Notes under the pieces: model-generated
The model's input: only the letters and a program-made list of their open reading frames with translations
What the model was told of the DNA's origin: nothing
Databases searched by the model: none
IMG/VR virus record: IMGVR_UViG_3300034198_008498
Location: 1-25,791 of that record
Length of the DNA stretch: 25,791 nucleotides
Reading direction: 5' to 3' (one strand)
Origin: a virus
Program-made: the position numbers and the translations under genes
Part shown: positions 6,009-17,855 of the stretch, in pieces
Layout: the number at the start of each line of letters is the position of its first letter
Numbering within the stretch: the first letter of the stretch is position 1

Positions 6009-7667
6009 ATGCCGCTTCTTTACCGCCGCCCCGGCGTCTACCTTGAGGAGAGTTTGCTCTCGTCAGCAGGTGATGTCTCCAACGCAACCAGTGTCGCCGT
6101 CTTCGTCGGTGCCGCTCCTAAGGGTCCGTTCAACTCGGGCAACATCCCTGTGCCTGTCCGTATCGAAACGTGGGGCGACTATGTCGCTCAGTTCGGCGGG
6201 TTTGATCCCGTTCCGACCAACACGTCCGGTGTCTGGGCCAAGTCGTACCTTCCCTACGCCGTGTACTCGTACCTCCAGAATGGTGGCCGTACGGCGTATG
6301 TCGTCCGCTCGGTTTCGGCCTCGCTGAACGGTGCCGCATCATCCAAGGTCGTGACTGGTGTGCAGTTCAGCAACGGCACGACTGCTGGCAACGCCTTCAC
6401 CATTTCGGCCAAGAGTGCCGGTGTGTGGGGTAACCGCCTGTCGTACACGCTGCGTATCTCGTCCACCGTTCCTTCAGCGGCTCCGTACACCGAAGTGCTG
6501 TACACCCTCCAGATTCTGCTTACCACCAACGGTGTTACCGAGATTGTGGACACCTTCAATGTGTCCGCCGCTGGCACCGTCTCTGGGGTCCCGCTGCTGG
6601 CTGATGCCGTCAATGACCCGGTTCGTGGTAGCACCTATGTAACGGTGTCGAACGTCCGCACTGACATTGTTCCCACCGAGGCTTTGACCGCTGTGGCGCT
6701 GACTGGCGGTACTGACCCGAACCTTCCCGGGGCCAGCGAATTGCGTGATTCGGCCATCAAGTCAGTTCCGCAGTTGGAAGGTCCGCTGATCCTCAACATC
6801 TCTGGATACATCAGCAACCAGAACAGCGTCAACACCTCTGACTGGGCTAGCAACTACATCGGTGCGACCTGCTCCAGCAGCGATTTCAGCGACCGTCAGG
6901 ACGTGTTCGTCGTCAACGACAACTGCACCCCTCGTCTTTCTGGCGTCACATCCTTGGCGTACGCAACGTCCATGCAAAGCACCTCGGCTTTGGGAGCCAA
7001 TTCGGGAGATTCGTACTGCGCTTCCTACGGGCCGTGGCTGCTGATCAACGACCCGGTGAAGTCCACCACCATCACCGCTATCCCGCCGGGAGGTTCGGTG
7101 ATCGGAATGATGGCCCGCATCGACGCAACCATCGGTGTGTGGCGCGCACCGGCCGGTGTGATTGCTGGACTGAACAACGTGGTTGGCGTTCAGACAAAGT
7201 TCAGCGATAGCGAACTGGGAACCCTGAACAATGCCAACGTCAACATCATCCGTCCGGTGACCGGCGCAGGTATCGCAGTGATGGGTGCCCGTACCCGGAA
7301 GTCGTACAACGCTGACCGTTATGTGTCGGCCCGCCGTACCCTCATCTACATCCGTGAAATCATGCGGCGGTCGACCCAGTACGCCGTCTTTGAGAACAAC
7401 GACAGCCGCTTGTGGTCGTCGCTTCGGATGACCGCAGACCGCATCCTCCGCCCCATCTGGGAAGCAGGCGGCTTGCGGGGAGCGAACGCTGCTCAGGCGT
7501 ACTACATCCGTTGCGACGAGACGACCAACACCACGGCAGTCATTCAGGCTGGCGAGGTCCGCATGGAAATCGGTGTGGCCTTGGAGTACCCCGCTGAGTT
7601 CGTGATCATTCGCGTGTCGCAGTTTGACCGCAGCCAGACCACCACCGAAGTCAACACGACCAACTGA
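6009..7667 (+). CDS. Tail sheath protein
   Basis: A 552-residue protein with strong family signatures. Near the N-terminus is RRPGVYLEE (residues about 6-14), the typical PGVY-x-[EQ]-E opening of phage and injection-system sheaths. It is followed by VAVFVGAAPKGP and a YLQNGGRTAYVVRS segment. The C-terminal domain (about 438-548) carries YVSARRTLIYIREIM, F-NN-LW, a G-L-G turn and a final hydrophobic V-I-VSQFD strand, as in the conserved sheath core. The sheath surrounds the tube and contracts to drive injection. GGGAG lies 8 bases upstream of the ATG. The tube gene follows after 16 bases, as in most contractile tails. A long reverse-strand frame here is a codon-use shadow. Confidence 0.97.
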   Translation: MPLLYRRPGVYLEESLLSSAGDVSNATSVAVFVGAAPKGPFNSGNIPVPVRIETWGDYVAQFGGFDPVPTNTSGVWAKSYLPYAVYSYLQNGGRTAYVVRSVSASLNGAASSKVVTGVQFSNGTTAGNAFTISAKSAGVWGNRLSYTLRISSTVPSAAPYTEVLYTLQILLTTNGVTEIVDTFNVSAAGTVSGVPLLADAVNDPVRGSTYVTVSNVRTDIVPTEALTAVALTGGTDPNLPGASELRDSAIKSVPQLEGPLILNISGYISNQNSVNTSDWASNYIGATCSSSDFSDRQDVFVVNDNCTPRLSGVTSLAYATSMQSTSALGANSGDSYCASYGPWLLINDPVKSTTITAIPPGGSVIGMMARIDATIGVWRAPAGVIAGLNNVVGVQTKFSDSELGTLNNANVNIIRPVTGAGIAVMGARTRKSYNADRYVSARRTLIYIREIMRRSTQYAVFENNDSRLWSSLRMTADRILRPIWEAGGLRGANAAQAYYIRCDETTNTTAVIQAGEVRMEIGVALEYPAEFVIIRVSQFDRSQTTTEVNTTN

Positions 7668-7683: not shown

Positions 7684-8313
7684 ATGCCCACTCTCATTGA
7701 CAACAGGACTCGCGCTCACGCCGATCCGGTTCGCAACTTCAAGTTCCAAGTTCAACTGTTCCACCCGAACGGTGCCTTTGACAAGGGCATTGCAGAGATG
7801 GGATTCATGACCGTCGAAGGTCTGGCGATGAACACGGAAATGGTGCCCTACCGTGAAGGCGGCTGGAACACCAACCCCCACAAGTTGCCGGGCCAGACGG
7901 ACTTCGCTCCGCTCACCCTCAACGCTGGTGTGTTCCACACCAAGACCGGCATGTGGGACATCGCCAAGCGCATGTTCAGCGTGCAGTGGGGTCAGGGCGA
8001 TCTGGCCATGGGCGATGAGTACCGTTACGACATGGCCGTTCGTATCTTGGATCACCCCGTCACCATGGGGTCGCAGTCCGGTACGGGTGGCTCGGCAGAT
8101 GGTGCCATCTTGGCCTTCGTCTTCTACAACTGCTGGACGGCCAGCATTGGCTTCAATGGCCTCAATGCGCTGGATAACGCCATCCTCGTTCACCAGATGA
8201 CGGTGCATCATGAGGGCTTCGACGTGTTCTTCGGTAACACGGAGGCGAAGAATCTTGCCCATAGTTCGGGCGCAGGCGGCGCAGGCGGCGGCGGTCGTCT
8301 GCTCATGTCCTGA
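7684..8313 (+). CDS. Tail tube protein, T4 gp19-like
   Basis: A 209-residue protein with AGGAGG just upstream of its ATG. It opens with DPVRNFKFQVQL, then has FMTVEGLAMNTEMVPYREGG and KLPGQTDFAPLTLNAGVF. These match the typical gp19/injection-system tube pattern: an N-terminal F-x-V strand, a V-Y-REGG loop, and a K-LPG-x4-[LI]-T-L-x-x-G-V segment. It forms the hexameric inner tube through which DNA passes. The C-terminus carries a Gly/Ala-rich tail (AGGAGGGG), which most family members lack. It is directly downstream of the sheath, the usual partner order. Confidence 0.93.
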   Translation: MPTLIDNRTRAHADPVRNFKFQVQLFHPNGAFDKGIAEMGFMTVEGLAMNTEMVPYREGGWNTNPHKLPGQTDFAPLTLNAGVFHTKTGMWDIAKRMFSVQWGQGDLAMGDEYRYDMAVRILDHPVTMGSQSGTGGSADGAILAFVFYNCWTASIGFNGLNALDNAILVHQMTVHHEGFDVFFGNTEAKNLAHSSGAGGAGGGGRLLMS

Positions 8314-8343: not shown

Positions 8344-9204
8344 GTGTCAACCACCGGAAACACCGCTGAGGCGTTTGACCTCTCGGTACTGGAAACCCCC
8401 ACGGACTCGAGCCAGAAGAAATCGCAGCAACTTGCTGCGGCAAAGGCGGCTATCGCAGGGTCCACTCCACTCATCCCCGATGCACCTAACTGCATCGTGA
8501 ACCTCCCCCGTGGTTTGTACCAAGGCGGGTCGTGGAAAACAGAAGCCGAAGTGCGTGAGTTGAACGGAGCCGATGAAGAGGCTTTGGCACGCGCTAAGGA
8601 ATCTGTCGACTTCTTCGACCTTGTCTTGGCCCACGGGGTGGTTCGGGTGGACAACATCAACCTCTCTGGCATGGCGGTTCCCGACCGTCAAGCAGCCCTT
8701 CGGGAGTTGCTGGTTGGTGAGCGGTCACAGTTGCTGTTGGCGATTCTTACCGTCACCTATGGCAACGAGAAGATTCTCAACCTCACGTGCCCGCATTGCG
8801 AGATGGAGCAGGAAGCCACCCTGCTCCTCAAGGAAGACTTCAAGCCCAAGGCTGTGGAAGATGTGCATGCTTCGACCTTTCACTACACCTCGGCCAAGGG
8901 TGATGACATCGAATACCGACTGGTCACTGGCGCAGATCAGTTGGAAGCCCTCAAGCGAAAGGGTGCCACTACTGCTGAACAGAACACTCTCATCCTGTCC
9001 CGCTGCATCACCAAGGTGAATGGCGCATTGGTCGTCAGCCCTACCGAGTTCGCTCGTAACTTGGGTATGAAGGACCGAACCGCCATGCTCACAGCAATGG
9101 TCAGCAAGCAACCCGACATCGACCTGTCGGTACAGATGGGATGTCTGGGCTGCGGGGGTGACATCATCCTCGCCCTTGGGTGGGGTGATTTGTTTCGCGC
9201 TTGA
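8344..9204 (+). CDS. Base-plate/tail-assembly protein with a zinc ribbon, T4 gp26-like
   Basis: A 286-residue protein starting at GTG with GGAG about 10 bases upstream. Residues 1-60 are polar and probably flexible. A helical region follows (about 75-140). Two CxxC pairs, C149/C152 (CPHC) and C267/C270 (CLGC), could hold one zinc ion. Between them is a strand-helix region with a TLILSRCITKVNG segment. This arrangement, and the place between tube and tape measure, resembles the T4 gp26/base-plate protein family found in T4-like phages and injection systems. The slot is also that of tail-assembly chaperones, so a chaperone role is possible. The next small gene starts one base after its stop (TGACATG), implying translational coupling. 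Confidence 0.7.
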   Translation: MSTTGNTAEAFDLSVLETPTDSSQKKSQQLAAAKAAIAGSTPLIPDAPNCIVNLPRGLYQGGSWKTEAEVRELNGADEEALARAKESVDFFDLVLAHGVVRVDNINLSGMAVPDRQAALRELLVGERSQLLLAILTVTYGNEKILNLTCPHCEMEQEATLLLKEDFKPKAVEDVHASTFHYTSAKGDDIEYRLVTGADQLEALKRKGATTAEQNTLILSRCITKVNGALVVSPTEFARNLGMKDRTAMLTAMVSKQPDIDLSVQMGCLGCGGDIILALGWGDLFRA

Positions 9205-9205
9205 C

Positions 9206-9349
9206 ATGCAGACCCTCTATCTGGAGTACGACATGCTCGCCATGACGTACAGCGGATGGGGACTGAATGAGTTGAAATCGCTGACATACCGTGAGCGCCA
9301 GTACTGGAAACGATTGAACTCTTGGAGGAGGGAGCGAAATGGAACCTAA
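9206..9349 (+). CDS. Small tail protein resembling the injection-system protein that follows the gp26-like gene
   Basis: A 47-residue protein. I chose the ATG at 9206 because it falls one base after the upstream stop and restart there is natural. The frame is also open upstream to 9158. The sequence has an aromatic N-terminal helix, then W-x-L-x-E-L-x-S-L-x-x-RER-x-x-W and a basic end. This is the pattern of short proteins (of the DUF6760 kind, from memory) encoded after the gp26-like gene in extracellular injection systems. Its end overlaps the tape-measure start by 11 bases. Because it lies in the +1 frame of the gene before it, a frameshift fusion, as known for tail-assembly chaperones, is a conceivable alternative to a separate start. 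Confidence 0.7.
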   Translation: MQTLYLEYDMLAMTYSGWGLNELKSLTYRERQYWKRLNSWRRERNGT

Positions 9350-12300
9350 TGCCGCTGGCGGCGGGGCATACGAAACCTCCTCAAGAGGAAAGGGCAATGG
9401 TCCTTCCAAGGTAGTCAACCCCGGTATCGCTTCGTTTGCCTTTGAAATTCCCGGCATCGGGGACACCACCCACAAGGTCAAGCAGTTGACTGATGCTTTG
9501 CATGGCTTCAAGTCAGCCTTGGCAGGGATGTCGTCGTCCTTCCTTTCGGGTGCCTTCACTAACATCCTGTCTCAGATCAGCCGTGCTTCGGCTACGGCCA
9601 CCCAGAATCTGAATGGTCTAGCCGCTGCGTCCCGTGGAGCAGGTGGCGGCGGCGGCGGTGGTGGCGGTGGAGGTGGAGGTGGCGGCGGTCGTTACGGGGG
9701 GTTCTCACCTAGCACCTCCTCAAACGCCGGTTTCGCCCAGAACTGGTCACGCTCCGCAGGAGGCGGCAACTCCACTGGTGGTTCCGTGGGCGGAGCCGCA
9801 GCCGCCAACATGGGGACCTCCATCGGTGGGGCGGTCAACAACATGACCAGTGGCCTCATTGAGGGCCTTCCCATCATCGGCTCCATGGCTAAAGGTGTAT
9901 TGGACTTCGCTGGTGACATGGCGATGTTCCCACTGCGATTCGCCAGAGAGCGAATCAACACCAACCGAAACGCTGCTGCGAGGATGACAGCAGACCTCAC
10001 GCCCTACCAGTGGCAGGGCGGCGGTAAGAAAGAGATGGACGCCATCCTCAGTTCCATCAAGAACATCCCCGGCAATATGAAGGGGGACGTTACTGACATC
10101 CTCAACGCTCTAACGATAGGTCGCCAAAGCGGTGCCATGGCCCCCCTTGGGGGAAACCTCGGTCAGGATAAAGCCAGCCAGTTCTACAACATGATTGGCC
10201 AATTTCAGATGATGACTCCCGGTAAGGGAGCCGGTGAAGTGGCCAAGGTAGTTGGGTCCCAGATCAGTAATACACAGGCCAACCAGACAGCGGCCTTCTA
10301 TACCGGTGGTACCTTCTCCCTGCTCAAAATGGGCGGGGGAATGAAGTCTGCGTCCGAATGGGCACAAGGCATCATGAACTGGCTGAAGAATCAGCGACCC
10401 GGCAAGGACAGAGGGAAACAATTCAACTACGGTGAATTGCTGGCGCAGAACTTCCCCGGCTCAAACATCAACGCTTGGTTCGACCAAACCGGGGTTAGCC
10501 CAGAGATGCGTGATTACTGGTGGTCGTGGGCGCTTGCCTCAACGAACACCGGCATGGGCGGAGAGAAAATCTTTGACTACATGGGCGGTAATAGCGACGC
10601 AGAGAAACTTGCGAGCAACCAAGCATGGCGAAAGGCTGCTGCCGCTACTGCTCTGACCCGCAACGAGTTCGGACTGGCTGGGCAGATGACTGGCCAGTAT
10701 GCCACGCGAGAGCGGTCGAACCAGTGGTTCAACCAAGCGATGGGCGCTGCGGTCAACCGGTTGGTCCCCGGTATGGCTAAGGGCGCTCTCGGGATGATCC
10801 AGTACATGCCCGATGAAGTCGAACAATTCCTGTGGAACATCCTTGAGTCCTCCGGCCCCCTCGGTCAAATCGTTGGTGGCGGTATCGGATGGACTGCCGC
10901 AGCATCGGCCGCCGGGCCGTTGGGTGCTGCCACCTCCGGGGGGCTACCCGGAGGTAGTGGGTCGCCAATTGTTCCTAATTCTGATGGGACTTCTTCTACA
11001 GGGGACATTGGCGATTACGGTGCTTACGGGGGTTCCAGTACTGCTGGTCTGCACCCCGATATGCGCCGAAAGGTAGACCGGATGATGCGGGATAACCCGC
11101 GTTTGAAGGTGACATCCGGCCTTCGTGACGGATACACACAAGCCAAGTTGAAAAAGAAGGGCATTGGTAACTTTGGTTCAGGCGCACCATTCATCGGTGA
11201 TTTGGGTGATAACGGGGTAAATGGCCACGGCCAGCACTCTGGTGGGTGGGCAGCAGACCTCGGACCACGTTCGGAGTATGGATGGATTGCTGCTAATGCT
11301 CATAAGTACGGCCTAGAAACTGGTGGACGCCATGGTGAGCCGTGGCACGTTCAGGCTGCTGGAACAGTTGGTGGGTTCTCCAAGCGCCGACGCCGGGGCA
11401 CGGGCGACATTGGTGACTTGGGAGGGTGGCTTAGTGACACAATTTCCTCCATTCCCATCGTTGGTACGGCGTTCGATATGGCTGGCGGGATCATGGACGG
11501 TATTGAGATGATCGCAAAGACCTTGGGAGTGATGTTCAAGGGAATCCAGACGTTGGTTGGAATGTCGACCGGTGGGGGACTTCTTGACATGGCCAATCCC
11601 GATCCTTCACAGGTAGCAGCGAAGTCTCAGCAGTACATGAGTCTCATGGGGTTGGGGTCAGGAGCAGGCGTAAAGGCGGACGTGGTCCTCCCTTACGACG
11701 CTGCGTTCGGTCGCGGATTGCCCACTCAACTAAACCTGTCTAACTCATGGCAGGGAACTTCCGGCTCTACTAGCGGCGGGGTTGGTAGCGGCGGGGTCGG
11801 TAGCGGCGGGGTCGGTAGTGGAGGCGGTGGAGGCGCATCGGGTTCAATGCCCGGGTCCGCCAACGTGCAGCGAATTCTTCAGAAGTACGCCGGGGGAACG
11901 TCGAGTGTCAACGCCAAGTCCGTCGACGCTGCTACTAGGCAGCGTATGGAGGTCGCCTTGCGTGCCGCCTCAGCAGCAGGGTTCTCTGGGGATGAACTGG
12001 TAGCCATCGTTTCACTTGCTGGGCGAGAATCAAATTTCCGCCCTGAGGCGTACAACGGAAACCTTGGTACTGGCGACAACTCGTACGGTCTGTGGCAGAT
12101 CAACACCCTCAACGGTATGTGGGAGAACATGAGAGGCCCTCTTGGCCTGACTGACAAGAATCAGTTGAAGGACCCTATGGTCAACGCCCGGGCAGCAAAG
12201 TACTTGTTCGATCAGAGCAGGACTCCGTTCTTCGCATGGGGTCCATACCGGGGAGATGCCCCTCTTCATGGCGGAGCAGAAGATTGGGTTCCGACGGTGT

Positions 12301-12521
12301 ACTCCGTGGCCAAGGCTGATGGGTACGTGGGCGACATTGGTGATCTTGGTGATTACTCGCAACGCTCGCAGATGAGCAGCAACATGACCATTCAGTTCAA
12401 CAACCAGTTCCACCTGAACACGCAGGGTATGACCGGAGGCATGGACATCGGACGCCTTGTTCCGATCATGGCTGACCGGTTGGAGGAAGAAATGCGTAAG
12501 CGGTTGGCGGTACGTAGATGA
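9339..12521 (+). CDS. Tape measure protein with M15-type peptidase and lysozyme-like transglycosylase domains
   Basis: A 1060-residue protein with GGAGGAGGG upstream of its ATG. The N-terminal 100 residues are helical, followed by a poly-Gly tract (about 101-117) and a Gly/Ser-rich linker. Hydrophobic segments occur near 168-195 and 505-535. Residues about 565-680 form an M15-like (VanY/VanX-type) zinc peptidase: H633-x2-G-x-A-x-D640 and E667-P-W-H670 match the metal and catalytic pattern. Residues about 865-990 form a lysozyme-like/SLT domain: E897 in the GRESNF motif and Y916-G-L-W-Q-I. The motif GD[IL]GD[LY]G recurs at 555, 620 (variant), 689 and 998. Tape measures set tail length and travel ahead of the DNA. 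Both enzyme domains would cut peptidoglycan during entry. The size and place after the small tail proteins support the call. Confidence 0.92.
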   Translation: MEPNAAGGGAYETSSRGKGNGPSKVVNPGIASFAFEIPGIGDTTHKVKQLTDALHGFKSALAGMSSSFLSGAFTNILSQISRASATATQNLNGLAAASRGAGGGGGGGGGGGGGGGGRYGGFSPSTSSNAGFAQNWSRSAGGGNSTGGSVGGAAAANMGTSIGGAVNNMTSGLIEGLPIIGSMAKGVLDFAGDMAMFPLRFARERINTNRNAAARMTADLTPYQWQGGGKKEMDAILSSIKNIPGNMKGDVTDILNALTIGRQSGAMAPLGGNLGQDKASQFYNMIGQFQMMTPGKGAGEVAKVVGSQISNTQANQTAAFYTGGTFSLLKMGGGMKSASEWAQGIMNWLKNQRPGKDRGKQFNYGELLAQNFPGSNINAWFDQTGVSPEMRDYWWSWALASTNTGMGGEKIFDYMGGNSDAEKLASNQAWRKAAAATALTRNEFGLAGQMTGQYATRERSNQWFNQAMGAAVNRLVPGMAKGALGMIQYMPDEVEQFLWNILESSGPLGQIVGGGIGWTAAASAAGPLGAATSGGLPGGSGSPIVPNSDGTSSTGDIGDYGAYGGSSTAGLHPDMRRKVDRMMRDNPRLKVTSGLRDGYTQAKLKKKGIGNFGSGAPFIGDLGDNGVNGHGQHSGGWAADLGPRSEYGWIAANAHKYGLETGGRHGEPWHVQAAGTVGGFSKRRRRGTGDIGDLGGWLSDTISSIPIVGTAFDMAGGIMDGIEMIAKTLGVMFKGIQTLVGMSTGGGLLDMANPDPSQVAAKSQQYMSLMGLGSGAGVKADVVLPYDAAFGRGLPTQLNLSNSWQGTSGSTSGGVGSGGVGSGGVGSGGGGGASGSMPGSANVQRILQKYAGGTSSVNAKSVDAATRQRMEVALRAASAAGFSGDELVAIVSLAGRESNFRPEAYNGNLGTGDNSYGLWQINTLNGMWENMRGPLGLTDKNQLKDPMVNARAAKYLFDQSRTPFFAWGPYRGDAPLHGGAEDWVPTVYSVAKADGYVGDIGDLGDYSQRSQMSSNMTIQFNNQFHLNTQGMTGGMDIGRLVPIMADRLEEEMRKRLAVRR
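9640..9691 (+). repeat. Poly-glycine coding tract in the tape measure
   Basis: An almost pure run of GGN codons (GGC, GGT, GGA mixed) encodes about 16 consecutive glycines. The mix of third bases suggests selection for the amino acid rather than recent slippage. It marks a flexible joint between the helical N-terminus and the rest of the protein. Confidence 0.85.
11772..11831 (+). repeat. 15-bp tandem repeat encoding a Gly-Val-Gly-Ser linker
   Basis: The unit AGCGGCGGGGT[TC]GGT occurs three times (11772, 11787, 11802) and a fourth degenerate copy follows at 11817. The second and third copies are identical. It encodes SGGVG repeats that form a linker just before the lysozyme-like domain. The near-identity suggests recent copy-number change. 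Confidence 0.9.
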
Positions 12522-14179
12522 TCAACGCCGGAAATACCAACAACTATGTGGCCTTGGTGTCTGCCCCCTATGGGTTTACCGGGGCTGCTCCTTACAACCA
12601 GTCTGATGTCCCTTCCCATTGGGCATCCAATAACGCCCTTTCACCGCAGCAACTAGAGCAGAAACTGGCGTATGAATGGCTGAACAGCCATGAGATCAGC
12701 GGAGAGGACTCAAACCCACCGTTTACGTCAGGCGCATCGGGCCGGTTGATCCCCGGACTCAATGGCGGACAACGGATCGTGCGAGGGTACATCCGCAGGG
12801 CTAATTACGAAGCCAACGATGCCACAAGTAAGAAGCGGCTCTACTTCATGTACAACCCTGAGACGATTGTCAGGGATTACGTGTCGTACTTGGACCAAGC
12901 CGCCTTGGACCCATTCAACACTGTATACGGTTCCAAGAACCTCGTCGCTCCCCCCTCGTTCATGAACTTCCGGTTCGACTTGTTCTTCGACCGGCAGGAT
13001 GAGGTGTCGCAAGACATGAACAACCCCGGAGTGTTCGCTGACTACCAGTTCTTCGATCTTGTGGTCCGCAATGTCATTCCCTCAAACCCGAATTCGGTCA
13101 GCAACCAGATTCCCGATAACGGTGTAATGATGGTGAACCCCCGTGACATCACAGTGGTGTTCAGCCCGCAACTGTCTGTGCAGGGTCGCCCCATCAACGC
13201 ACAGGTGGTCTTTGAGAAGTTCTCCAGTCGCATGACCCCTATCCGCATGCGGATCAGTCTTGAAATGCGTGTCGTCTACATCGGCCCCATGAGGGAGTTC
13301 TCCGAGTACACGATGGAAGCAGCGGTTACCAGCACTTCCGATACTGTCGCCGCTGACGACTCCGCAAACTTTACGCTTACGTACAACACTGTGGTGGCCG
13401 CTTCTGGCGCTAACTCCGGTATCGGTGCTTACACCCCGAGTGCGAATCCCCAGACTCAGTCAAATCTTGTCAATGTAGGCAACTTGGCAAATATCGGTAA
13501 CACCGCTGATGGAACCGGTGGTACCGCAAGTTCTCCTAATGGAAGGGTTCGCAGTAACGCCCTTCAATGGGCGATCAACCACGTGAAAGAGGGATACACC
13601 CTCTACGACAACAACTTCGGGTTCCGTGGTAATGGCGTGGACCCGTCGGGGTTCCTGCGCTACGCCGATTGCTCCTCACTTGTGTGGTGGGCATACCGCA
13701 GTATCGGTATGTCCGAGAGAATGGGCTGGGGGAAGAACACCCCGGGGAATGTCCAGAGCATGCTGGAAGCGATGATCAAGAACAACACCGGCTTGGTACT
13801 CCTTTCGTGGGACCCTGAATCTGCTGACCTAGCCAGAACTTGGTTCTCCGTCAAAGCCAACCGTGACAAGATGCTTCCCGGTGACCTCATCATCCGCGAT
13901 AAGCGACTTGTGCCCGGTGCGCGCACCAGTCACGTAGCGTTCTTCAACGGATGGGCGGACAACGAAGGGAATTTCTTCAATGTCTTTGATGCCGCTGGTC
14001 AATCCAAGACTCCGCAGGTGGGCCACCGTAAATCTGGACATCTCGGCTGGAACCATAGTTCACTGCTGAACTTTGAGAATGGTGCCGGTGCTACGCACAT
14101 TGTTAGGCCCATTCCGCTTGGAGCATCCTCCGTCACTACATACAGCACTAACAGTCCTTACGCAGGGATTAGGTACTGA
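12518..14179 (+). CDS. Baseplate/tube adaptor protein with a C-terminal NlpC/P60 peptidase
   Basis: A 553-residue protein overlapping the tape-measure stop (ATGA). Residues about 100-260 resemble the injection-system tube-adaptor family (Afp7-type, CIS_tube): FMYNPETI at 110-117, a FRFDLFFDR strand, then FSP and a final RISLEMRVVY strand. A Ser/Asn/Gly linker follows (about 260-345). Residues about 346-540 are an NlpC/P60 cysteine peptidase: C385 in YADCSSLVWWAY, GDLII, H472 in SHVAFF, and possibly H503 as the third residue. Such enzymes cut the D-Glu-diamino-acid bond of peptidoglycan stems. Afp7-type proteins usually carry a LysM domain instead; here a LysM-like sequence is the separate next gene. 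The domain order is seen; the exact baseplate position is inferred. Confidence 0.8.
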   Translation: MINAGNTNNYVALVSAPYGFTGAAPYNQSDVPSHWASNNALSPQQLEQKLAYEWLNSHEISGEDSNPPFTSGASGRLIPGLNGGQRIVRGYIRRANYEANDATSKKRLYFMYNPETIVRDYVSYLDQAALDPFNTVYGSKNLVAPPSFMNFRFDLFFDRQDEVSQDMNNPGVFADYQFFDLVVRNVIPSNPNSVSNQIPDNGVMMVNPRDITVVFSPQLSVQGRPINAQVVFEKFSSRMTPIRMRISLEMRVVYIGPMREFSEYTMEAAVTSTSDTVAADDSANFTLTYNTVVAASGANSGIGAYTPSANPQTQSNLVNVGNLANIGNTADGTGGTASSPNGRVRSNALQWAINHVKEGYTLYDNNFGFRGNGVDPSGFLRYADCSSLVWWAYRSIGMSERMGWGKNTPGNVQSMLEAMIKNNTGLVLLSWDPESADLARTWFSVKANRDKMLPGDLIIRDKRLVPGARTSHVAFFNGWADNEGNFFNVFDAAGQSKTPQVGHRKSGHLGWNHSSLLNFENGAGATHIVRPIPLGASSVTTYSTNSPYAGIRY

Positions 14180-14511
14180 TGATCACTCCCGATTCCCGCT
14201 ATCAAGATGCCACCAAGACCTTTACCGTGGGCCACACCTACGACGAATACGGTCGCATCTATCTGGATGGTGATGAGCCGACCCCGGTGCCGAAGACTGT
14301 CTCCCATGAGACATTGTTTCGTCTGACTACTCCCGCTCCTACCCCAGTCTCTCCTGTTACTTACATGGTCAAGGACGGTGAAGACCTGTCATTCATCGCT
14401 TGGAAACTGACCTCGGCGCATAACAATTGGTGGCGCATTGCGGAAGCCAACCCGTTCATTTGGTACCCCTTGGACCTCACCACTGGTACGGCCCTAAAGG
14501 TTCCACTCTGA
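14179..14511 (+). CDS. LysM-like baseplate protein (gp53/gpX type)
   Basis: A 110-residue protein whose ATG shares one base with the upstream stop (TGATG). The N-terminal half is Pro/Thr-rich. The C-terminal 50 residues have the LysM order: YMVKDGEDLSFIAWK, a helix with WWRIAEANP, then L-TGTALKVP. LysM proteins here, such as P2 gpX and the domain in Afp7, link tube, hub and wedge. T4 gp53 has a similar fold and is an alternative. The preceding adaptor lacks this domain, so the two genes may together replace one longer protein. The next start is two bases downstream (TGACATG). Confidence 0.8.
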   Translation: MITPDSRYQDATKTFTVGHTYDEYGRIYLDGDEPTPVPKTVSHETLFRLTTPAPTPVSPVTYMVKDGEDLSFIAWKLTSAHNNWWRIAEANPFIWYPLDLTTGTALKVPL

Positions 14512-14512
14512 C

Positions 14513-15730
14513 ATGGCTGTCAACGCCTCCTTCGATGCTCAATTTCTCAACATCCCAATCCGTTCACTGTTCATCAACGGTGATGTGTTTCCTGTCGTAA
14601 TCCGTGAGGTGACAATTGACAGGGGTCAAGGGGTCCACGACTCAGTCACGATGTCGGTGTTGATCCCCGGAGAAATGACCTTCGATGGAAATATTCGTAT
14701 CCCCTACGACGACCCGACCTCCATATCACGGACTAGGGACGTGTCGGTATCGTCCTTGACCGGGCAGGCAGTCAACTTCACCTTCGGTATTTCCCCCAGT
14801 GTGGAACAGTTCTTTGGGTACGTAATTTCAATTACCCCTGACCAGCAATTCAAGCAGGGTTTGAACTACGTGATTCAGATGGTCGGCAGCACGCTGATTA
14901 CACAGATACTGAACCGAAGGTTCTACACCAACATCACTGCTTCGCAGGTAGCCAAGAAATGCACGGATCGCTCACGTCTTGGATACCAAGGGGTTTCTAC
15001 CTCTTACAGATGGCCTGCAATCGGGGTAACCAATGACACCGACTGGACTGTCCTCAACGCCATGGCTTCTGTAAGCGGCTGCATTCTCTTGAATTGGGCA
15101 GGGGTGGTGAGGATGGTAGACCCCTTAGAACTGTTCCGTGAGTATCCGTTCACCACTCTGGTACAGAGTGATGAAATTCTGGAATCTGACCGCAAGTTGA
15201 TGGACTTCAAGCCCACGGAGCACACAATTCGACAGGTCAGTAAGGCTCCTCAGCAGTTCTACTTCTTCGATGCTGGCGGCGGAGTGGTGTCTCATATTCA
15301 GCCCACTGCCTCAAAGGCTGACCCAGTGCCTTGGTTCAAGAGTCCTGTCCGTAGCCGGGAAGAAGCCGAGGTGTATGGAAACGCCTCCGTCAGGAGCCTG
15401 TCCCGGTGGCTTCAGGATGCTTCTGCGCGTATCAAGGGAGACGCTTCGATCTACCCCGGGGTGACCGTGGATGTGAACACCGGCACACGTTCATCCAGCG
15501 CAAAGTTCAACGGTAGGTGGTTGGTAACCCACGTAAAGCATTCAATGAAGCGTGACGCTTACGATACCGAACTAACGCTCACCCGACCCGGAGCCAGTAT
15601 CCCCGCTCTGACTAAGTCGTCCTTTGAGCATTTCTGGCGTAACTCTCCGAAGGCCCGCCCCTCGCTTAGTCTTCGTAATGGCCAATGGGTGTCATCATGG
15701 GCAGACCCATTTGTGGAGGTAGCAGTCTGA
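14513..15730 (+). CDS. Baseplate hub protein, gp27/GpD-like
   Basis: A 405-residue protein. The N-terminal 120 residues are beta-rich, with FGYVISITPDQQ, as in the first hub beta-domain. The middle contains a helix-turn with QVAKKCTDRS and the WTVLNAMASVSGCILL segment. The later part has RSLSRWLQDAS, Y-PGVTVDVN, and FNGRWLVTHVKHSM ending in a Y-x-T-ELTLTRP strand. This end is very typical of late-control-D, gp27 and VgrG first domains. The trimeric hub closes the tube and carries the spike. At this length only the hub part is present, with no OB-fold or beta-helix spike visible. It starts two bases after the LysM gene and ends overlapping gp25 by one base. Confidence 0.82.
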   Translation: MAVNASFDAQFLNIPIRSLFINGDVFPVVIREVTIDRGQGVHDSVTMSVLIPGEMTFDGNIRIPYDDPTSISRTRDVSVSSLTGQAVNFTFGISPSVEQFFGYVISITPDQQFKQGLNYVIQMVGSTLITQILNRRFYTNITASQVAKKCTDRSRLGYQGVSTSYRWPAIGVTNDTDWTVLNAMASVSGCILLNWAGVVRMVDPLELFREYPFTTLVQSDEILESDRKLMDFKPTEHTIRQVSKAPQQFYFFDAGGGVVSHIQPTASKADPVPWFKSPVRSREEAEVYGNASVRSLSRWLQDASARIKGDASIYPGVTVDVNTGTRSSSAKFNGRWLVTHVKHSMKRDAYDTELTLTRPGASIPALTKSSFEHFWRNSPKARPSLSLRNGQWVSSWADPFVEVAV

Positions 15731-16131
15731 TGCAAGCAATCAAGTTTCCGTTCTCTGTTTCAAACGGTCAAACCGTTCAGTCCACGTCGTCCTACGAGGA
15801 AATCGTGCGCGGCCAAGTCGTTGACGCTCTCATGACCAACCAAGGGGACCGAGTTTCTCGAGCCAACTACGGCTGCGACATCCAGTCAGCCCTCTTCGAC
15901 CCGTCAGACGAACTGGTCAGGGCCGACGCCGGTGCTTACATCAAGGATAAGTTGCAGAGATTTGTCCCAAGGTGCGTGGTCAACTCGGTACGCATTGAAT
16001 CACCGGACAATGAGGCTGGAGTAATCTACATCTCGGTGGCATACCAGACCTCGGTGTATCAGAACGAGCAGACTTTGAGGGTGCCCGTGAGTAGCGAATT
16101 CATTCAGCGAAGCATTGGGGGCACGGTATGA
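15730..16131 (+). CDS. Baseplate wedge protein, GPW/gp25-like
   Basis: A 133-residue protein. The ATG at 15730 (TGATG overlap with the hub, GGAGG at 15715-15719) is preferred over an in-frame ATG at 15685 inside the hub. From that start the protein opens with IKFPF, as the family does. Characteristic parts follow: V-x-DALMTNQGDRVSRANYG, then L-DP-DEL, then a strand-rich end with VIYISVAYQ. gp25 joins the sheath to the wedge and is essential in all contractile tails. It overlaps the baseplate J gene by four bases. Confidence 0.92.
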   Translation: MQAIKFPFSVSNGQTVQSTSSYEEIVRGQVVDALMTNQGDRVSRANYGCDIQSALFDPSDELVRADAGAYIKDKLQRFVPRCVVNSVRIESPDNEAGVIYISVAYQTSVYQNEQTLRVPVSSEFIQRSIGGTV

Positions 16132-17855
16132 CCGACCAAGGTGTAATCATCACATCGGAGGATTTCCGAAAGACCCGAAGCCGGGCTGTGCTGGACTACA
16201 CCTCCAGAGACTTCGCCGCCATTCGCGCCCAGTTGGTTGGACTCGCCAAGGGATTCATGCCTGAGTGGGAGACGGTCGGGGAAGCCGGTGACTTCGGAAC
16301 CCTTCTGCTGGAACTGTTCGCCTACATGGGCGATGTCATGCACTTCTACATTGACCGAACCGCTAGCGAGGCGTTTCTTGGAACCGCAGTGCGTCGTCAG
16401 AGTGTGCTGTACATCGCTGACATGTTGGGATACAAGCCCATTGGGCAGCAGGCAGCATCAGTAATCCTCACTTTTTCCATGGCAGACGCTGCCGCTCTGG
16501 AGACTGCGCTGGGTCTGACCACGGCTGAGGCGCTGGATTATTCGGTCACTATCCCTGCTGGAACCCGGGTTACAAACAGCACAAACACCGCCGACTCGCA
16601 GGCAATCTTTGAGGCGGACTACGAGTTCACCTTGACCCCCGGAACCTCCTTGGAAGTGTTCGCTACAGAGGGTGTGACCATCAGCAACGAAGGTCTGGGT
16701 AACTCCAAGGGCACGCCGAACGCCACCTATCTGGTTCCCAACACCGGGGTCATCAGCAACTCGGTGGAGATCACTACGCGTGAAGGAGGGAACAACATTC
16801 GGTGGACGTATGTATCCGAAATCTCCTTGGCTCGTCCGACCCAATCCGCATTCACCACCTACTTGGACGATGAAGGCCGCACCTTCGTGGTGTTCGGGGA
16901 CAATTCCGCCGGGCGAATCCCGCCGTTCGGCTCTGAAATCTTTGTCAGTTATCGGTATGGCGTGGGCGCTTCAGCCAACGATTTGTCCCTAGGGTCGCTC
17001 ACTGTTCTGGTCCCCCCTACCGGTGTGGACACCTACGGCATCTCTGTCACCAACGGTGCGCCGCCGATTGGTGGCGCAGACCATGAGTCTGTTGAAAGCA
17101 TGCGGTACTCCATTCCACGTTCTACTGGTCGGCTGAAGTCACGCGCCGTAACTCTCAACGACTACGCCGACCTCGCTTTGCAGGTCCCCGGCGTAGCCAA
17201 AGCCGTATCATTCGGCACGTTGTACACAGCCGTACATGTCCGTGTTGCGCCCGTCGGCGGCAACGCCAATGACGCCTACATGGCTCGGCTGAACGCCGCA
17301 GTTGAAGATCATTTGAGGGACAAGGTTCTGGTAGGAACCCATATCTATTCAGAACCAAGTACCGCTGATGACTTGTGGCTGGACGCTTACCTGCGTATCA
17401 CGGTGCATGTGCAGCCTGCGTACAACAAGACGCAGGTGCGTAAGGCTGTGGAAAACTATGTGAGAAGTCTGTTCGCCTTTGACAATGTGGATTTCGGCAC
17501 CCGTATCTCGCTTGGTCAGGTATACCGGGCCTGCCTTACTGTCCAAGGCGTCGAATGGGCAGAGATTCGGTGGTTGGATTCAGTTGCCCCTTCCAATACG
17601 TCAATGGAAGTAACGCTGGACCAAGACGACGATGTCCGCAAGATTCAATCGCAGGGGTTGGCTCCTGACGAACTGCACATCGTCCGCATCAAGACTTTCG
17701 TTGTGGACGCCGCCCTGTTGGCTCGGTACCCAGATTCCACACTGGGAGCCACAAATGTTGTGGAGTCGGCAGCGTATTGGCCTGACCTTTCGCTGGACGA
17801 ACGCACCCACGATGGTCTGTGGGTAAAGGCTGATGGAGGGTTGGTCGGGACATGA
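16128..17855 (+). CDS. Baseplate wedge protein, baseplate J/T4 gp6-like
   Basis: A 575-residue protein. The N-terminus is typical of the family: LDYTSRDFAAIRAQLV, then DFGTLLLELFAYMGDVMHFYIDR, then R-QSVLYIADMLGYKP (about 20-110). A beta-rich middle follows, including FVVFGDNSAGRIPPFG. The later part has the ESMRYSIPRSTGRLKSRAVTLNDY helix-loop and a C-terminal domain with VRKAVENYVRSLFAF-N-VDFGTRISLGQVY. With gp25 and the I-like protein it forms the wedge ring around the hub. It overlaps both neighbours by four bases. Confidence 0.92.
   Translation: MTDQGVIITSEDFRKTRSRAVLDYTSRDFAAIRAQLVGLAKGFMPEWETVGEAGDFGTLLLELFAYMGDVMHFYIDRTASEAFLGTAVRRQSVLYIADMLGYKPIGQQAASVILTFSMADAAALETALGLTTAEALDYSVTIPAGTRVTNSTNTADSQAIFEADYEFTLTPGTSLEVFATEGVTISNEGLGNSKGTPNATYLVPNTGVISNSVEITTREGGNNIRWTYVSEISLARPTQSAFTTYLDDEGRTFVVFGDNSAGRIPPFGSEIFVSYRYGVGASANDLSLGSLTVLVPPTGVDTYGISVTNGAPPIGGADHESVESMRYSIPRSTGRLKSRAVTLNDYADLALQVPGVAKAVSFGTLYTAVHVRVAPVGGNANDAYMARLNAAVEDHLRDKVLVGTHIYSEPSTADDLWLDAYLRITVHVQPAYNKTQVRKAVENYVRSLFAFDNVDFGTRISLGQVYRACLTVQGVEWAEIRWLDSVAPSNTSMEVTLDQDDDVRKIQSQGLAPDELHIVRIKTFVVDAALLARYPDSTLGATNVVESAAYWPDLSLDERTHDGLWVKADGGLVGT

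Follow-up and report, generated by a model that had tools for sequence, protein, structure and literature searches.

Introduction

Hydrolases carried on phage tape measure proteins (TMPs) have first to be retained by the tail and later to attack the cell wall, and how they are held and released is known for few phages. The TMP of phage T5, pb2, is cut between a hydrophobic stretch and a muralytic metallopeptidase, so that the enzyme is detached from the tape (PMC10038345). The tail lysozyme gp5 of T4 is cut from the spike during assembly (cited in PMC10038345). In VWD domains, the sequence GDPH undergoes autocatalytic Asp-Pro cleavage (PMC10880436). Cell-wall hydrolases embedded towards the TMP C-terminus are found in the Streptomyces phages BRock and GiJojo and in P1 Sit (PMC9024508). 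In the open-licence PMC literature, we found no description of a TMP motif of the kind reported below.

Here we analyzed an IMG/VR virus record of 25,791 bases (the window) encoding a TMP in which a Gly-Asp (GD) heptad recurs around embedded enzymes. Like pb2, this TMP has a hydrophobic stretch followed by a metallopeptidase, and the T5 cut site lies where the GD before the M15 peptidase lies here. However, T5 has one site only, after R1127 and not at GD, and a non-contractile tail, and cleavage of the present TMP is a proposal. No conserved Arg was found beside GD in the profiles of the three sites, and T5-type cleavage after Arg is thus not what the family displays. In T4 gp5, too, a domain border is the place of a specific cut, which releases a tail lysozyme, but gp5 is a spike protein rather than a TMP. 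GDPH shares a Gly-Asp-Pro core that is common in clade B relatives of our TMP, but its site lies in a folded VWD domain, and here the His is absent and the window has Ile for Pro. We rejected GDPH autocleavage, as the window reads GDI and the relatives read GDP and varied residues. The BRock and GiJojo TMPs share the C-terminal placement of hydrolases but lack M15, and the GD element is not conserved in them. A GDLGD after the NlpC domain of GiJojo was rejected as a copy from a cultured phage, since relatives read GDMGS, GNLSD, and GSMDG at this place. Separately, GiJojo gp84 (annotated 'hypothetical protein', L081:18710-21880) and BRock gp134 (annotated 'endolysin', L084:18702-21779) occupy the TMP position by gene order, and both have NlpC/P60 (a Pfam match in GiJojo) followed by a further enzyme-like domain.

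Tail module and tape measure gene

The ORF at 9339-12521 is a TMP, as judged by its position, length, and relatives. It is housed in a contractile-tail module that includes the sheath (6009-7667), the tube (7684-8313), hub- and wedge-like proteins (8344-9204, 14513-15730, and 15685-16131), and baseplate J (16128-17855). Judged by the tail sheath, the closest cultured phages are Streptomyces myophages, e.g., BRock and GiJojo, at about 33% identity and with shared gene order. Comparison of the whole TMP, as DNA and as protein, with cultured phages gave no matches outside the enzyme domains, and a genome scan for prophage relatives confirmed none.

For the gene 3' of the TMP (12518-14179), two weak matches were obtained, one to NlpC/P60 (E 0.0067, which does not reach the Pfam cut-off) and one to a tail protein that has lysin activity; from these matches, its product is a possible third cell-wall enzyme of the tail module. 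Between this NlpC-like gene and a hub-like gene, a 110-aa ORF (14179-14511) weakly resembles a PHROG endolysin family (E 2.1e-5).

Table 1 Features of the TMP gene in the window.
Feature	Position	Strand	Basis or remark
Tape measure protein (TMP), 1060 aa, embedded M15 peptidase and SLT lysozyme	9339..12521	+	ORF; placed after sheath and tube genes; SLT domain; M15 fold
Hydrophobic stretch, aa 511-529, 5' of motif copy 1	10869..10925	+	Kyte-Doolittle mean 1.03 over 19 aa
Motif copy 1, GDIGDYG, aa 555-561, M15 N-terminal border	11001..11021	+	
M15 zinc-peptidase domain, about aa 557-683	11007..11387	+	zinc ligands H633, D640, H670; catalytic E667; fold match
GDLGDNG, aa 620-626, look-alike within M15 domain, non-functional copy	11196..11216	+	GDIGSIG in L003
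Motif copy 2, GDIGDLG, aa 689-695, M15 C-terminal border	11403..11423	+	
SLT/lysozyme-like domain, aa 876-958	11964..12212	+	Pfam SLT_3 41.7 bits (cut-off 27); SLT 31.3 bits (cut-off 21.3)
Motif copy 3, GDIGDLGDY, aa 998-1006, border before C-terminal domain	12330..12356	+	
TMP C-terminal strand-helix domain, about aa 1013-1060	12375..12518	+	conserved block, family alignments; C-terminal helix in model

The heptad GD[IL]GDxG occurs in the TMP at exactly residues 555, 620, 689, and 998 (nucleotides 11001, 11196, 11403, and 12330). Chance does not readily produce it: in 20,000 shuffles of its residues, the protein yielded 0.00095 heptads on average and at most 1, so the three copies named in the original prediction (555, 689, and 998) stand against an expectation of about 0.001. 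The shorter GDxGD is present five times in the TMP and is absent from the window's other open stretches of 60 aa or more.

Conservation of Gly-Asp at the domain borders

We gathered the family by profile searches, anchored first on M15 and then on two regions of the tape outside M15. The M15-anchored searches may bias the set; the tape-anchored searches gave the same picture, and all relatives turned out to have M15, even those retrieved by a tape region alone. All members come from uncultivated viruses in metagenomes and are very divergent. The counted set comprised 75 non-redundant TMPs with a complete C-terminus and a recognisable M15 pattern, and the linker windows were measured off from the M15 catalytic residues and the C-terminus rather than from solved domain ends.

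GD was present in the linker before M15 in 74 of the 75 relatives and, without exception (75/75), at 38-110 residues from the C-terminus, before the C-terminal strand-helix domain; two thirds of them (50/75) also had GD in the 60 residues that follow M15. The third GD was as invariant as the M15 catalytic residues in an alignment of 23 sequences. Shuffling was performed on an earlier set of 47 TMPs. The pre-M15 GD was observed in 45/47 (shuffle mean 25.5/47, maximum 35) and the pre-C-terminal GD in 44/44 (shuffle mean 18.9/44, maximum 27), while DG, GE, and GN were depleted or unchanged in the same comparison. In L188, GE replaces GD at the C-terminal site; the M15 of this relative lies outside the pattern used, and L188 is hence not among the 75.

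The third copy had been described as following the lysozyme domain, and this did not survive the comparison. GD before the C-terminal domain is kept in TMPs in which Pfam detects no lysozyme or NlpC domain, namely the short TMPs L131, L135, L139, and L145 as well as L101, L241, L270, and L272, so this copy belongs to the C-terminal border. TMPs whose sole detectable enzyme is M15 keep GD on both sides of it. Since about 75 highly divergent relatives retain the motif at these borders, we consider it a real functional tag, and the sequence comparisons suggest that it probably serves to release or anchor the enzymes. A specific Asp/Gly tag at domain borders, as originally predicted, is therefore strongly supported; the motif was looked for in close relatives, whose lack of it would have counted against the idea, and it was present in close and very distant relatives alike.

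Outside the family, the TMP of Rhodobacter phage RcZahn (L287:1-4215) has an M15 preceded by GDAATL, and a GDMGG that lies 47 residues short of the C-terminus, a single suggestive case far from the sequences counted here.

Form and position of the element

The heptad is, from the family sequences, a local form of a broader G-D-[P/V/I/A] element. Clades were taken from the tree that also served the Pro test below. At the C-terminal site, GD is followed by P in 85% of clade B and by P, V, or I in most of clade A. The window carries the clade A form with GD doubled or tripled (GDIGDLGDY), and L032 has tandem copies (GDVGDIGDVGD). Several relatives have an aromatic residue or Met soon after the C-terminal GD (GDVMDYEM, GDVEAMAM, and GDPMPVRSM).

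We compared GD with shuffles along 71 complete TMPs. The ratio was highest at the two outer borders (2.3 in the linker leading to M15 and 2.6 ahead of the C-terminal domain) and reached 1.7 after M15. It was close to unity within M15 (1.1) and in the middle linker with the enzyme region (0.9), and lowest in the tape (0.5) and the final 38 residues (0.16). GDP was found 113 times in the TMPs against 18.5 expected, and 14 times in 299 neighbouring ORFs against 25 expected; GDxGD was found 37 times in the TMPs and once in these ORFs. Composition or generic disorder does not explain this pattern, because GD is scarcer than expected in the tape, near expectation in the Gly-rich middle linker, and shows no enrichment among the neighbours. 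At the other end of the protein, GDP lies near the N-terminus in L040 (about aa 16) and L053 (about aa 11); family-wide, GD in the first 40 residues is 1.4 times expected, too weak to claim.

We next asked whether the six residues after GD are more alike among copies within one protein than across proteins that share a subclade. This held for the pre-M15 and pre-C-terminal copies (p 0.0002; p 0.0024 with an identity measure), as in L270 (GDPMPYGDK, GDPMPYGDA, and GDPMSLL) and L264 (GDPMPYG, GDPMPFG, and GDPVAYM). The post-M15 and C-terminal copies resembled each other weakly (p 0.03). For the pre-M15 and post-M15 copies, a looser windowed test had given p 0.012; we dropped that resemblance, as the fixed-window test was not significant (p 0.33). 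The likeness of the two outer copies fits a common reader of both sites and is moderate evidence, as the subclades retain internal relatedness. Parallel switching between Pro and non-Pro at the sites was not significant in a tree-aware test (about 3 same-way against 2 opposite pairs), and Pro concordance was therefore discarded as evidence.

Enzyme domains and structure models

The M15 model matches the folds of LdcB (BaLdcB), VanY, ChiX, and Ply500 (Z about 9 over about 100 residues), and the aligned structures cover model residues 40-166, which correspond to aa 557-683. The peptidase is thus bracketed by the copies at 555 and 689, as had been proposed. Its zinc ligands and catalytic Glu (HxxxxxxD ... 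ExxH) are invariant at H, D, E, and H in 77 aligned sequences. Pfam VanY is over the cut-off in L004, L015, L049, L131, and others, and below it or unlisted in L003 and the window. One relative, L034 (3302-6130), has a Cys-rich linker after M15 (GDPGKGCCVGCGGAG) between GD copies. The SLT domain of these TMPs is about 42-45% identical to gp26 of the Streptomyces tectivirus Forthebois (L288:2953-3621), which is annotated as a glycosyltransferase.

In an AlphaFold2 model of aa 520-1060 (23 sequences), the three border copies fall in segments with pLDDT below 50 or at their edges. In a second model of aa 518-716 (77 sequences), copy 1 falls on the N-terminal edge of the M15 fold; copy 2 lies beyond it, with a pLDDT of about 50. 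In neither model does the motif have a fold of its own or form a confident part of an enzyme. The border copies are thus predicted to sit in disordered linkers at or just outside the edges of the M15 fold.

A hydrophobic stretch was found within 70 residues before the pre-M15 GD in 54 of 74 TMPs, the window included, as defined by a hydropathy threshold, compared with 12% of control positions.

Close relatives and the DNA of the copies

L001 and L002 are near-identical to the window, and L003 is 68% identical. Many residues have been gained and lost in the linkers between L003 and the window, around border copies that are kept (GDIGDYG, GDIGDTG, and GDLGDYG). The counterpart of residue 620 in L003 reads GDIGSIG. 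The variant reported at this residue is present in the window, but lying inside M15 and lost in L003, it is a look-alike rather than a working member of the motif. At the end of the L003 contig, GDIGDVGP occurs in a large ORF (L281:6233-9196, minus strand). We rejected this as a member of the motif, as it looks collagen-like and unrelated and is probably a fibre segment.

Identical bases had been reported at two of the copies, and these are confirmed: the 15-mer GGGCGACATTGGTGA occurs without mismatch at 11402-11416 and 12329-12343 only, i.e., at copies 2 and 3. The DNA of the border copies differs between the window and L003 almost only at synonymous positions, which argues that selection acts on the peptide. 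The codons of the motif match the general codon use of the genes, so the motif does not appear to be a DNA signal, and the repeated 15 nucleotides are, from the sequence comparison, incidental codon choice.

Discussion

Our best reading of the motif is a short linear element under selection, placed in disordered linkers on either side of the hydrolase cassette of a TMP family; its presence, its conservation at the protein level, and its specificity for the TMP and for position are established here. We tentatively favour recognition by a protease, and we infer that a factor reads the motif and that cutting is the outcome. The protease may be phage-encoded, of the host, or the embedded M15 itself, and it would act at or next to Gly-Asp while the tail is assembled or in the course of infection. 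Through cuts on the N-terminal side of M15 and of the C-terminal domain, the enzymes would come loose from both the tape and the C-terminal anchor; where the extra copy after M15 is present, a cut there would separate the peptidase from the lysozyme. Conservation at the borders, positional enrichment, linkers of low pLDDT, the likeness of the outer copies, and the GD sites flanking M15 in TMPs with no other enzyme all favour cleavage. Against it, the residues after GD vary (P, V, I, A, and G), which is loose for a protease site, the T5 cut follows Arg rather than GD, tandem copies as in L032 suit docking as well as cutting, and the Pro state shows no significant tree-independent covariation between the sites.

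It is nearly as likely, on the same data of position, conservation, and disorder, that the element is instead a docking tag, as the original prediction also allowed. GD-[P/V/I] would then bind a pocket, whether on the tail hub, in the tube lumen, or on an assembly chaperone, and the linkers flanking the enzymes would be held during assembly and released on firing. Tandem GDs would suit multivalent binding, and the aromatic or Met residues shortly after the C-terminal GD and the likeness of the two outer copies agree with such a pocket. Placement at the borders of the enzyme module, however, is explained more directly by release than by anchoring. We put cleavage slightly ahead because the topology is that of T5 pb2, with the site between a hydrophobic stretch and a metallopeptidase.

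Both GD and DP often form turns, and the copies are located in linkers; the motif could merely break secondary structure at domain ends as a turn or flexible hinge with no partner. This is unlikely, as GD is enriched specifically while DG, GN, and GE are not, the Gly-rich middle linker shows no enrichment, and a hinge needs neither conservation in 75/75 relatives nor likeness between distant copies.

A narrower form of the cleavage reading, in which the GD sites are a release code read by the embedded M15 and the TMP behaves like a small self-cutting polyprotein, is improbable. M15 is a candidate protease for these sites because it is found in every member, tape-fetched ones included, and Gly-Asp, as a small-acidic pair, loosely resembles the Ala/Gly-D-Glu bond of peptidoglycan.

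We consider a metal-binding turn of the calcium type or a collagen-like Gly-X-Y segment very improbable. The window does read GDI-GDL-GDY, with Gly at every third residue and Asp repeated, and a metal-binding turn was among the original suggestions. But most relatives have one GD, with neither Gly periodicity nor a nearby second Asp, and the linkers are predicted to be disordered. Two or three Gly-X-Y triplets are too few for a collagen helix, and we rejected a collagen-like segment as the window has only two to three rather than an extended run. Least credible is a DNA-level boundary sequence aiding recombinational swapping of enzyme domains, for which the 15 bases shared by copies 2 and 3 speak, but against which stand the ordinary codon usage, the mainly synonymous differences from L003, and the six GD bases, common to 19% of same-gene copy pairs compared with 15% expected.

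Under the cleavage reading that we favour, or under docking, a border motif kept across this large and divergent family would mark precise sites for the processing or docking of TMPs. The motif also provides a simple signature with which enzyme-bearing TMPs may be found and divided in metagenomic phage genomes.
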